Shown: positions 6,157-8,746 of the stretch, piece after piece
Numbering within the stretch: position 1 is the first letter of the stretch
How the letters are laid out: the number at the start of each line of letters is the position of its first letter
From: Thiocystis minor
Lineage (GTDB): Bacteria; Pseudomonadota; Gammaproteobacteria; Chromatiales; Chromatiaceae
Assembly (NCBI RefSeq): GCF_016653465.1
Contig: NZ_NHSQ01000030.1
Span: forward strand, 1 to 44,271
Reading direction: 5' to 3'
Length of the DNA stretch: 44,271 nt
Notes under the pieces: model-generated
Told to the model about the DNA's origin: nothing
Database searches by the model: none
Seen by the model: the letters and a program-made list of their open reading frames with translations, nothing else
Translations under genes and position numbers: made by a program

Positions 6157-6287
6157 CGCCCGCATTGATTCCTGGAGCTGACATTTCAGCCATGCAACGA
6201 AAAAAGGCTTAGAGTGACAACCTCTAAGCCTTTGTTTTTTTATGGTAGCGGGGGCAGGATTTGAACCTACGACCTTCGGGTTATGAG
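6157..6287. repeat. left direct repeat (att-side copy): tRNA-fMet 3' half plus terminator
   Basis: About 130 bp that recurs at 8605-8746. It contains, reading on the minus strand, the 3' half of the initiator tRNA from the anticodon (CTCATAAC) through the T arm to CCA, then the tRNA terminator hairpin and some 45 bp of flank. Similarity to the other copy ends sharply after TTATGAG at 6287, where the complete tRNA copy continues with its anticodon stem but this one changes to unrelated sequence. This is the classic signature of site-specific integration into a tRNA gene. Confidence 0.88.
6201..6233 (-). terminator. rho-independent terminator of the truncated tRNA copy
   Basis: Stem of 12 bp (AAAGGCTTAGAG with CTCTAAGCCTTT) around a 7-base loop, with a run of A on the left that reads as a U tract for minus-strand transcripts and a T-rich run on the right. 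It corresponds to the hairpin behind the intact tRNA at 8661-8693, differing mainly in the loop. Confidence 0.75.
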
Positions 6288-6367
6288 ATTTAAAAAGTGG
6301 GGGTTTATCGGCGTTAGTTCGCGCTTCATAATCTGCTGACACATTGCTGACACGGGACCTTCGGGTT

Positions 6368-7696
6368 ATGGCGTCAATCAAACTGACCGCCGGCAGAATC
6401 CGCGATATTTCACACCCGCCGCCCGGCAAACAGATCTATCTGTGGGATTCCGACGCACCAGGACTTGGCGTCAGAACCACCTCCCGATCCAAGGCGTTCA
6501 TCTTCAATTCGCGCGTCAACGACAAACAGGTAAGGGTCGCTATCGGCGATGTGCGGACGCTGGATATCGACAAGGCCAGAGCAGAGGCCCGGCGCCTGCA
6601 AATGTTGATCGATCAGGGTACCGACCCACGCGACCACAAAGCCGAACAACTGGCACGGGTCACGGCCAGAAAGATCGATGCCAAGCGACAGGCCGATGCA
6701 GCGGATCTGGAGGCCCAACGACAGGCCGTCACGGTCCGGGACGCCTGGCAAGCCTATCTCGTCGACCGCTCCCACGCGTGGTGTGATCGCTATCGCTTCG
6801 ATCACACCAACTTGGCGCGCGAAGGCGGGGAGGCGAAGAAGCGAGGCAAGACCCTGACCAATGCCGGCCCGCTGGCGCCGCTGATGACAATGCGCCTGAT
6901 CGAGATCACCGCCGCGACCTTGCGCACCTGGCTGAAATCCGAGACCGCCGTCCGACCGACCCAGGCCCGCCATGCGTTCGGCGCCTTCAAGACCTTTCTT
7001 GGCTGGTGCGAAGAACAGCCGTCGCTCCAAGGCATCGCCGAGCCGGCCGCCTGCGAGCATCGCGCGGTCAAGGAGCTGCTGCCCGCCAAACGTGCCAAGG
7101 ACGACGTGCTCCAGCGCGAGCAGTTGCCTTCATGGTTCGCCGCCGTGCGTCGACTCGACAACCCTGTGATCGCCGCCTACCTGCAAACGCTCTTGCTGAC
7201 TGGCGCCCGCCGCAACGAGATTGCGACCCTGACGTGGGCGAACGTCGACTTCCAATGGAACAGCCTCACGATCCGCGACAAGGTGGAGGGCGAGCGCATC
7301 ATTCCTTTGACGCCCTATGTCGCGTCCCTGCTGTCTGCCCTGCCCCGGCGCAACGAATGGGTTTTCAGTAGCCCGGCCGCCGCCGCCGGATATCTCCAAG
7401 AGCCACGCATCCCGCATAACCGCGCGCTCACGACCGCCGGCCTCCCCGCACTCAGCCTTCACGGTCTGCGTCGTTCGTTCGGTACGCTGTCTGAGTGGGT
7501 CGAGATGCCCGTGGGGATCGTCGCGCAGATCCAGGGGCACAAGCCCAGCGCCACCGCCGAAAAGCACTACCGCCGCCGCCCGCTGGACCTGCTGCGCCAA
7601 TGGCATACCAATCTGGAAGGCTGGATTCTGGAGCAGGCAGGGATCCCCCAACCGACAGCGGACCGGACCGAGGCACCGCTGCGTCGCGTGAAGTAG
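6368..7696 (+). CDS. tyrosine recombinase (integrase) of the tRNA-fMet element
   Basis: Site-specific recombinase that would insert and excise the element. N terminus (about 1-85) resembles the DUF4102 arm-binding domain (KQIYLWDSDAPGLGVRTT, ARAEARRLQMLIDQGTDP); the core-binding domain follows (about 125-225), then the catalytic domain. Catalytic residues are visible: Arg in LLTGARRNEIATL, Lys in IRDKVEGERIIPL, His-x-x-Arg in LSLHGLRRSFGT, and His and the nucleophile Tyr in QGHKPSATAEKHYRRRP. I chose ATG 6368 (MASIKLT) because family members start just before this position; an in-frame start at 6344 would add eight residues. The chosen ATG lies inside a 15-bp copy of tRNA sequence. Length 442 residues, apparently intact. 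Confidence 0.92.
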   Translation: MASIKLTAGRIRDISHPPPGKQIYLWDSDAPGLGVRTTSRSKAFIFNSRVNDKQVRVAIGDVRTLDIDKARAEARRLQMLIDQGTDPRDHKAEQLARVTARKIDAKRQADAADLEAQRQAVTVRDAWQAYLVDRSHAWCDRYRFDHTNLAREGGEAKKRGKTLTNAGPLAPLMTMRLIEITAATLRTWLKSETAVRPTQARHAFGAFKTFLGWCEEQPSLQGIAEPAACEHRAVKELLPAKRAKDDVLQREQLPSWFAAVRRLDNPVIAAYLQTLLLTGARRNEIATLTWANVDFQWNSLTIRDKVEGERIIPLTPYVASLLSALPRRNEWVFSSPAAAAGYLQEPRIPHNRALTTAGLPALSLHGLRRSFGTLSEWVEMPVGIVAQIQGHKPSATAEKHYRRRPLDLLRQWHTNLEGWILEQAGIPQPTADRTEAPLRRVK

Positions 7697-7741
7697 AACG
7701 GGATAGACTGACGTGACTTGACATGACATGAGCGCCACATC

Positions 7742-8113
7742 ATGACCACATTGATTCTCGATACCCTGGACTATGCCACCAAGCTCAAAGCTGGCGGCTT
7801 CAGCGAGCAACAAGCCGAGGCTCAGGCCCGCGCCTTGGCCGAGGTTCTGGAGCGCCAAATCGTGACCAAGGCTGAAGCGGTCGAGCATGAAAACAATCTG
7901 CGGCGCGACATCGCGGGCGTTCGCGCGGATCTCACGCGGGACATTGAAGCCTTGCGCGTTGAATTGAAGCGCGACATCCGCGAATCGGAATTGAAGCTCG
8001 AAGCGCGGCTGTCGGAAACGAAAGCCGACCTGACCCGCTGGGTCATCGGCGTGGGAATCCTGCAAGCCACCGTCGTCATCGGCGTCTTGATGAAGGTCGC
8101 CAAGCTGATCTAG
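7742..8113 (+). CDS. DUF1640-like coiled-coil membrane-anchored protein, copy 1
   Basis: A 123-residue protein: a conserved N-terminal part (LDTLDYATKLKAGGFSEQQAEAQARALAEVL), a long heptad-like coiled coil of alternating charged residues (about 45-95), and one C-terminal hydrophobic helix (WVIGVGILQATVVIGVLMKVAKL). This arrangement matches bacterial DUF1640 proteins, distantly related to the CCDC90/MCUR1 family of mitochondrial inner-membrane proteins. It starts 45 bp after the integrase stop and is followed 20 bp later by a shorter relative, so the three genes may be cotranscribed. The function is unknown; the coil and anchor suggest an oligomeric inner-membrane protein facing the cytoplasm. 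Confidence 0.78.
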   Translation: MTTLILDTLDYATKLKAGGFSEQQAEAQARALAEVLERQIVTKAEAVEHENNLRRDIAGVRADLTRDIEALRVELKRDIRESELKLEARLSETKADLTRWVIGVGILQATVVIGVLMKVAKLI

Positions 8114-8133
8114 ACACCACCGAGGCACAGACC

Positions 8134-8394
8134 ATGACCACCATCACTTTCGACACCCTGAAATTCGCCCGCACCCTCAAAGACGCGGGCATCCCCGACA
8201 GCCAAGCTGAAGCCTTCGCGGTCGCCTTTCGCGACGCGACCAGCGAGGAACTGGTGACGCGCGATTATCTGAATCTGCGCGTCGCGGATGTGGAAACCAA
8301 AATCGAAGCGGCCAAGGCCGACATCATCAAGTGGCTCGCCGGCTTGTTGCTTGCCCAGGCCGCCCTGATCGCCGCCCTCGTCAAGCTGCTCTGA
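8134..8394 (+). CDS. DUF1640-like short coiled-coil membrane-anchored protein, copy 2
   Basis: An 86-residue relative of the preceding protein. It shares the N-terminal pattern (TFDTLKFARTLKDAGIPDSQAEAFAVAF), an E-LVTRDYL segment matching ERQIVTKAE of copy 1, and a C-terminal anchor (IIKWLAGLLLAQAALIAALVKLL), but its coiled coil is about 40 residues shorter. The similarity and the 20-bp spacing point to tandem duplication followed by shortening or expansion of the coil, and perhaps to hetero-oligomers. No function is known. Confidence 0.75.
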   Translation: MTTITFDTLKFARTLKDAGIPDSQAEAFAVAFRDATSEELVTRDYLNLRVADVETKIEAAKADIIKWLAGLLLAQAALIAALVKLL

Positions 8395-8604
8395 CCCCCG
8401 GACAACAACAGGCCCCGAGACGGCACCACCCGTTTCGAGGCCCTGACCTTCACCGATCTGATGCAGAGGTTCGGCAATGGCTGAAACGAAGTTTATCCCA
8501 TCGATCTGGAAAGATCGCGACACCTACACGAATCAAGCGCGATCCCCCTCGCCTGCGCTGGGAGGATCCGGCCAAATGTGAGAAATCCTCACTTATCCGA
8601 GCGA

Positions 8605-8746
8605 CCGCCCGCATTGATTCCCAGCGCTGACATATCGCTGACATTTCAGTCACGCAACGAAAAAAGGCTTAGAGGGGTAACCTCTAAGCCTTTGTTTTAT
8701 ATGGTAGCGGGGGCAGGATTTGAACCTACGACCTTCGGGTTATGAG
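8605..8746. repeat. right direct repeat (tRNA-side copy)
   Basis: Counterpart of 6157-6287: flank beginning CGCCCGCATTGATTCC, a doubled GCTGACA motif, the terminator hairpin and the tRNA 3' half through TTATGAG. This copy carries about 11 extra bases because the GCTGACA motif is duplicated here and single at 6177. The two copies differ at scattered positions in the flank and hairpin loop but agree through the tRNA part. Confidence 0.85.
8661..8693 (-). terminator. rho-independent terminator of tRNA-fMet
   Basis: A 13-bp stem (AAAGGCTTAGAGG with CCTCTAAGCCTTT) around a GGTAA loop, with a run of A to its left, i.e. a U tract on the minus-strand transcript of the tRNA. T-rich sequence on the other side may let it act on plus-strand transcripts from the element too. 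Confidence 0.82.

Follow-up and report, generated by a model that had tools for sequence, protein, structure and literature searches.

Genomic islands that target tRNA genes carry a tyrosine integrase beside one repeat, rebuild the tRNA gene at the other end and have arm-type sites at both ends. Here we describe a unit of this plan in Thiocystis minor, on a 44,271-nucleotide stretch of DNA (contig NZ_NHSQ01000030.1), the whole of which we call the window. Like the described islands, the unit has a tyrosine integrase next to one repeat, a bracketing tRNA 3' repeat, a rebuilt tRNA gene and candidate arm-type sites at both ends. Unlike them, it measures 2.46 kb, appears to have lost its core and has the initiator tRNA-Met gene (tRNA-fMet) as its target. 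We consider it probable that deletion has reduced the unit from a larger integrative island, one of a family of about 6-12.5 kb whose integrase would recombine tRNA genes from the anticodon loop through to the 3' end. Its features are listed below, DUFa and DUFb denoting two open reading frames (ORFs) that resemble DUF1640/CCDC90 proteins.

6157-6287, no strand: outer left repeat, apparently the end of an older element, with a single arm word (6177-6183), a terminator and a displaced tRNA-fMet 3' half (6243-6287)
6335-6352, plus strand: integrase-side paired arm-type sites, GCTGACA-N4-GCTGACA (6335/6346)
6357-6370, plus strand: copy of the tRNA anticodon-arm core (ACCTTCGGGTTATG), ending in the likely integrase start ATG 6368
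6368-7696, plus strand: full-length tyrosine integrase with an N-terminal arm-binding domain; a longer ORF opens at TTG 6344
7742-8113, plus strand: DUF1640/CCDC90-like gene a (DUFa), with head, long helix and C-terminal hydrophobic anchor
8134-8394, plus strand: DUF1640/CCDC90-like gene b (DUFb), with short stalk and C-terminal hydrophobic anchor
8396-8476, plus strand: conserved leader, a hairpin (8411-8423 / 8430-8442, by eye) followed by a ribosome-site region
8477-8581, plus strand: truncated start of the gene with which the island core begins in relatives (ATG 8477, 34 codons, stop)
8606-8746, no strand: right end, with paired arm-type sites (8626/8637), a terminator and the 3' half by which the tRNA gene is rebuilt
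8702-8778, minus strand: tRNA-fMet (CAT), the target gene, intact

Ends and target of the unit

The direct repeats, 131 bp (6157-6287) and 141 bp (8606-8746) long, are identical in 123 of 142 aligned columns, with identity blocks of 92%, 98% and 87%. Positions 33-77 of the tRNA are duplicated at 6243-6287, where 45 of 45 positions are identical to tRNA-fMet, and the tRNA parts of the two repeats lie 2459 bp apart, start to start. The target, a tRNA-Met(CAT), reads as the initiator type, judged from its sequence. Between the repeats lie the full-length tyrosine integrase and the two DUF1640/CCDC90-like ORFs, which are related to each other at about 30% identity. The integrase ORF matches Phage_integrase (7.5e-14) and Arm-DNA-bind_3 (2.6e-12), both over cutoff, and by eye the catalytic residues seem to be present. 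The first-pass annotation had proposed repeats of about 130 bp holding the tRNA-fMet 3' half and its terminator, an intact tyrosine recombinase and two paralogous coiled-coil/membrane-anchor genes, and on each of these points it is borne out. No relaxase or mating-pair genes, and no capsid, terminase, packaging or transfer families, were found among the three ORFs; since the unit is reduced, the absence of packaging genes says little about the parent island.

Perfect pairs of GCTGACA at 11-bp spacing occur exactly twice in the window, at 6335/6346 by the integrase and at 8626/8637 by the tRNA, and because there is one per end the ends look functional. We read these pairs of 7-bp words as putative arm-type binding sites of the integrase. 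In the congener G132 (genomes and loci are given by our G and L labels) the arm word is GGCTACA, likewise paired at both ends; the motif changes jointly relative to that of the window. In six of the seven distant islands at tRNA-Met, a pair at 11-bp spacing (5 to 7 of 7 letters alike) lies 73-76 bp from the tRNA, and in five (L038, L040, L048, L050 and L055) a pair also stands just before the integrase. Paired arm words lie 74-75 bp from tRNA-fMet in G122, G100 and G119, for which no integrase was found in the fetched stretches of 10 to 20 kb; those at 74-76 bp include the pair of G153. The chance of a paired arm word is about 0.0045 per site, from base shuffles that ignore phylogeny. Among 28 tRNA-fMet loci besides those of the window and G132, the pair was seen only in G122, G100 and G119; its absence from the others is weak evidence, as a 1.5-kb flank could miss a large island with a distant integrase.

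The outer left repeat extends past the tRNA and terminator into element-type sequence. It resembles the terminus of an older element that has been lost, because it has one arm word only (6177) and because no arm pair was found within 220 bp of tRNA-fMet in G171, G091 and G114. Each of these three genomes has one fMet copy, without a match to the window integrase in the 18-19 kb around it; as their flanks differ from those of the window, they are not strict empty alleles.

A copy of the anticodon-arm core lies at the integrase start and agrees at 14 of 14 positions in the window, 11 of 14 in G132 and 10 of 14 in G057. We rejected such copying as a general rule of these integrases, since it was seen only in these three genomes and, in a looser form read by eye, in G178. 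Lying inside the copy (6357-6370), the integrase start codon could mark a site of self-regulation.

In the mechanism that we propose, the integrase would bind the paired 7-bp arm sites at both ends and exchange the 3' half of the tRNA, so that the tRNA gene stays whole. Insertion would have taken place beside an older element, about 130 bp of which would survive at the left. The island core would have been lost, with the integrase, which may still work, both ends and an accessory slot between the integrase and the core leader being kept. The cargo of this slot would be two tail-anchored coiled-coil DUF1640 proteins.

The core remnant and relatives at the initiator tRNA

The gene content of the unit is incomplete, in that the core gene is cut after 34 codons. 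It is because only the leader and these first codons of the core-opening gene are kept that we read the unit as a deletion-reduced island. The window leader is matched at nine other places, seven of them after integrase or slot genes, with one match among these of only 34 bp, and two just before an integrase (the integrases of L107, L108, L110 and L111 were judged by eye); beyond these nine it is present in G031. In L107 and L108 the leader opens genes of 235 and 245 residues, respectively, neither of which has a Pfam match.

In G132, a 12.5-kb island lies at the same tRNA site, between the tRNA and a half-copy, and the right flank is 92% identical in DNA to that of the window. Larger islands at this locus, with the unit as a deletion remnant, were what the first-pass annotation had named as evidence against its reading, and G132 provides such an island. 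The two islands share the tRNA target, the leader and a related integrase (68% identity in protein, 71% in DNA), and the G132 slot holds a 20-codon DUF1640 scar (our own reading). Unlike in the window, a RelB-like gene, at 26.5 bits slightly below cutoff, and a ParE gene come after this scar, and the left flank is different. The island further carries genes for a helicase, a helicase-loader-like protein, a ParB-like protein, DUF5681, a helix-turn-helix (HTH)/M78 protein and a weak PIN match. At its right end (L094:4083-5652), the HTH/M78 regulator matches PADLOC RmrA models and has a weak PIN-type partner.

For G057, of the same genus, a 6.6-kb contig bears a half-copy, an integrase and a Fic gene but not the tRNA itself. 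The unit at tRNA-fMet in G178 measures 1.96 kb and contains a DUFa gene, a DUFb-like gene that is cut and an integrase whose N-terminal part is missing, and an additional open DUF1640 gene lies outside the left repeat. In G031 we found the tRNA, a piece of the core gene (by eye), the leader, DUFa and a 48-residue integrase match, whereas G153 and G123 have integrase remnants, the leader and an HTH gene (by Pfam in G123, by eye in G153). The first-pass annotation had raised the prospect of DUF1640 genes at this site without the integrase. This is so in part: the outer copy in G178 has no integrase adjoining, and in G031 no more than an integrase fragment is left.

Target choice among distant relatives

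An integrase match is present in 109 of 194 genomes of the family, few of them close. We examined 31 loci of more distant relatives, 7 with tRNA-Met, 5 with only other tRNAs and 19 without a tRNA gene on the stretch examined. In ten of the 12 tRNA-bearing loci the 3' part of the tRNA is repeated upstream of the integrase (the seven with tRNA-Met, L039 with tRNA-Asn, L053 with tRNA-Phe and L056 with tRNA-Ser); no matching tRNA repeat was found there in L054 and L061. The repeats at tRNA-Met are 46-50 bp long and 6.2-10.1 kb apart, and those at tRNA-Asn, -Phe and -Ser are identical over 50, 50 and 58 bp and about 11.5, 9.0 and 5.7 kb apart. All of these repeats reach from the 3' end of the tRNA to roughly its anticodon loop. 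In our own reading, the tRNA-Met genes of the distant loci are elongator-type by sequence; the window, G132, G057 and G178 have the initiator gene. The integrase family thus makes use of a single part of tRNA genes, tRNA-Met being its main though not its sole target. A tie of the family to the CAU anticodon was rejected on account of the tRNA-Asn, -Phe and -Ser repeats.

Genes of the accessory slot

To survey the slot we used the 41 integrase loci, out of 44, in which 600 bp or more of sequence follows the integrase. Genes of toxin-antitoxin (TA), antitoxin-only, HTH or Fic type occupy it in at least 16 of the 41 (L045-L048, L051, L052, L056 with antitoxin only, L057, L059, L061, L062, L065, L093 with Fic, L094, L102 with HTH only, and L109), and DUF1640 genes in three (the window, L095 and L099). 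Twelve of the 16 were checked with Pfam; the other four (L046, L052, L061 and L065) were matched to these twelve by blastp. The Pfam scans covered slot proteins from 23 loci out of the 41 and found neither TA nor DUF1640 in nine (L036-L039, L042, L043, L055, L060 and L096). In the rest of the 41 nothing was recognised, 13 of those being without a Pfam scan or any hit; since thirteen loci were screened by blastp to 13 reference proteins alone, 16 is a lower bound. In G035 a broken integrase, a DUF1640 gene and RelB/ParE-like ORFs stand in series (by eye).

The DUF1640 proteins

Against the PF07798 cutoff of 33.5 bits, DUFa scores 31.2 (just under) and DUFb 41.8 (over), as does the DUFa homologue in L095 (38.6). 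Like CCDC90/MCUR1 (DUF1640, PF07798), the two proteins have an N-terminal head, a C-terminal hydrophobic anchor and, where the stalk begins, an [aliphatic]-A-T-K-type motif (IVTK in DUFa, LVTR in DUFb); this motif of CCDC90 proteins is described in PMC4786415. They differ from them in being short-stalked and island-borne. The 19-residue hydropathy peaks at the C termini are 2.14 and 2.22, and a single-sequence structure model of DUFa has helices at 2-17 and 22-122 (pLDDT 90.6). Both proteins are thus predicted to have a CCDC90-like head, a stalk and a C-terminal membrane anchor. A fold search with the DUFa model gave no PDB match at E <=0.001, and a sequence search of the PDB gave nothing for DUFa and one weak match for DUFb (9d01 chain A, named a-iTHR-201). 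Among plasmids DUFa has one match, at 38.9% identity. PMC7519068 reports that in yeast the relatives Put6 and Put7 assemble into a hetero-oligomeric membrane complex, which makes a paired DUFa-DUFb complex plausible.

DUF1640 genes occur in 33 of 116 genomes of the family, in up to 10 copies and mostly away from integrases; many of the remote copies are of a longer class. The DUFa subfamily was found in 20 of 210 genomes at 42 places (44 rows, two split hits being merged and a cut-off copy in G018 excluded), 38 of which have at least 1 kb of upstream sequence. At 10 of the 42 a co-directional integrase or integrase remnant, drawn from several integrase lineages, ends 26-308 bp upstream, whereas at about 62 other DUF1640 loci no such integrase was found; one further DUFa place has a divergent integrase. 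An integrative unit in the tRNA-fMet gene, with the DUF1640 genes as part of it, is thereby supported, the integrase-then-DUF1640 order recurring in other genera. That all DUF1640 genes are island genes was rejected: an integrase match was found at 2 of 66 PF07798 loci (L211 and L212), both of the DUFa type. Between G127 and G178, DUFa shows a dN (non-synonymous divergence) of 0.03 and a dS (synonymous divergence) of 0.42, the remaining pairs being more diverged, up to saturation; DUFa looks to be under purifying selection. For DUFb a single comparison, with G178 (45% identity, dN 0.44, dS 1.37), says little.

In the available text of the literature on DUF1640/PF07798 we found no report of an integrase link. 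A phage link has been suggested before, in that PMC5291501 assigns a DUF1640 gene to a phage remnant region with tRNA-Ser at its flank. On a viral contig, a DUF1640-like gene (L243:4381-4605) adjoins a divergent integrase-like gene (neighbour by eye). A second small protein, which starts MTADIESL and has a weak SlyX match under cutoff, is encoded beside DUFa genes in L226, L246, L235 and L233; twice it stands directly behind an integrase gene or that integrase's DUFa.

Flanking genes

The left flank of the window (2000-6150, a phospholipase A1 gene and its neighbours) sits elsewhere in G132, at about 1.49 and 3.10 Mb; because it maps to quite different places, the left side of the site has been rearranged between the congeners. 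The right neighbour of tRNA-fMet is a RoxA-like/di-haem cytochrome c gene (8877-10442, minus strand), a match to which lies within the 1.5-kb flank at 15 of 30 tRNA-fMet loci, including that of the window. Tandem tRNA-fMet genes occur in G104, with four copies 150 bp apart (G104:C4:238849-239379), and in similar arrays in G075 (three) and G027 (two).

Discussion

The first-pass annotation had offered a minimal autonomous element as one possibility, and the full-length integrase, the paired arm-type sites at both ends and the further compact integrase-DUF1640 units at tRNA-fMet in G178 and G031 could be taken to mean that the integrase and DUF1640 pair are complete and move as such. We regard this as highly unlikely, since the integrases of these other compact units are broken, the units themselves being eroded, and the window retains the truncated start of a core gene. 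Moreover the G132 island, at the same tRNA and with the same right flank, and the ten distant islands that have both repeats span 5.7-12.5 kb. Equally improbable is a satellite dependent on a helper phage or plasmid for transfer. A related integrase is found on two viral contigs, on one viral contig a DUF1640-like gene lies by an integrase-like gene (by eye), and the helicase, helicase-loader and ParB-like genes of the G132 island are phage-type. The three ORFs, however, have no match to capsid, terminase, packaging or transfer families, and a search of 50,697 phage records gave nothing for DUFa. A deletion-reduced island accounts better for the unit, although several points weigh against it. 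Every step is read from sequence; the end point of the deletion is placed only at about 8581-8606, no intact close relative with the same DUF1640 pair having been found to fix it. The arm pair is missing at both ends of L058 and beside tRNA-fMet in G178 and G123, and is not clear at the integrase side of L063. With integrases only 68% identical in protein, the window and G132 islands may be separate arrivals, and target choice is not fixed, as the integrase family also uses tRNA-Asn, -Phe and -Ser. Finally, three of the ten integrases upstream of DUFa are broken (G178, G031 and G035), and at 32 of the 42 DUFa places no integrase was found immediately upstream, four of the 42 having less than 1 kb of sequence on that side.

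As to the DUF1640 pair, most likely it would aid the persistence of the island through some accessory function at the membrane, and this may be a role in stability or defence. That the pair is an addiction-like or defence module replacing TA genes in the slot seems doubtful. The TA, antitoxin or Fic-type slot genes of relatives, the G132 scar directly before RelB-like and ParE genes and the series in G035 all point in this direction, and like the type II TA systems in the relatives' slots DUFa and DUFb are two small adjacent genes right after the integrase. But they are mutually related and tail-anchored, neither has a TA family match, PADLOC has no match for them or for the integrase, and position is not function. 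DUF1640 and TA genes sit together in G035, so they need not be alternatives. A more serious possibility, though still one that we hold only tentatively, is that the DUF1640 genes, as host genes in dispersed positions, hitchhike without benefit to the island; their many copies away from integrases would fit this, as would the DUFa genes that stay open where the integrase is broken (G178 and G031), whereas the link of the DUFa subfamily to integrases of several lineages argues against it.

Overall, we view the unit as an eroded but end-intact island, ordinary in kind and unusual in its cargo. What had seemed a 'smallest mobile element' becomes a case of island decay with clear ends. It also ties DUF1640, a little-studied bacterial family akin to the mitochondrial protein MCUR1, to integrases and to a slot often occupied by TA genes, so that its function becomes testable. 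It is rather unlikely, but conceivable, that bacterial relatives of MCUR1/CCDC90 include a mobile stability or defence module, in which paired tail-anchored coiled coils stand behind integrases of several lineages in the slot of TA genes; if true, this would assign a function to prokaryotic DUF1640 proteins.

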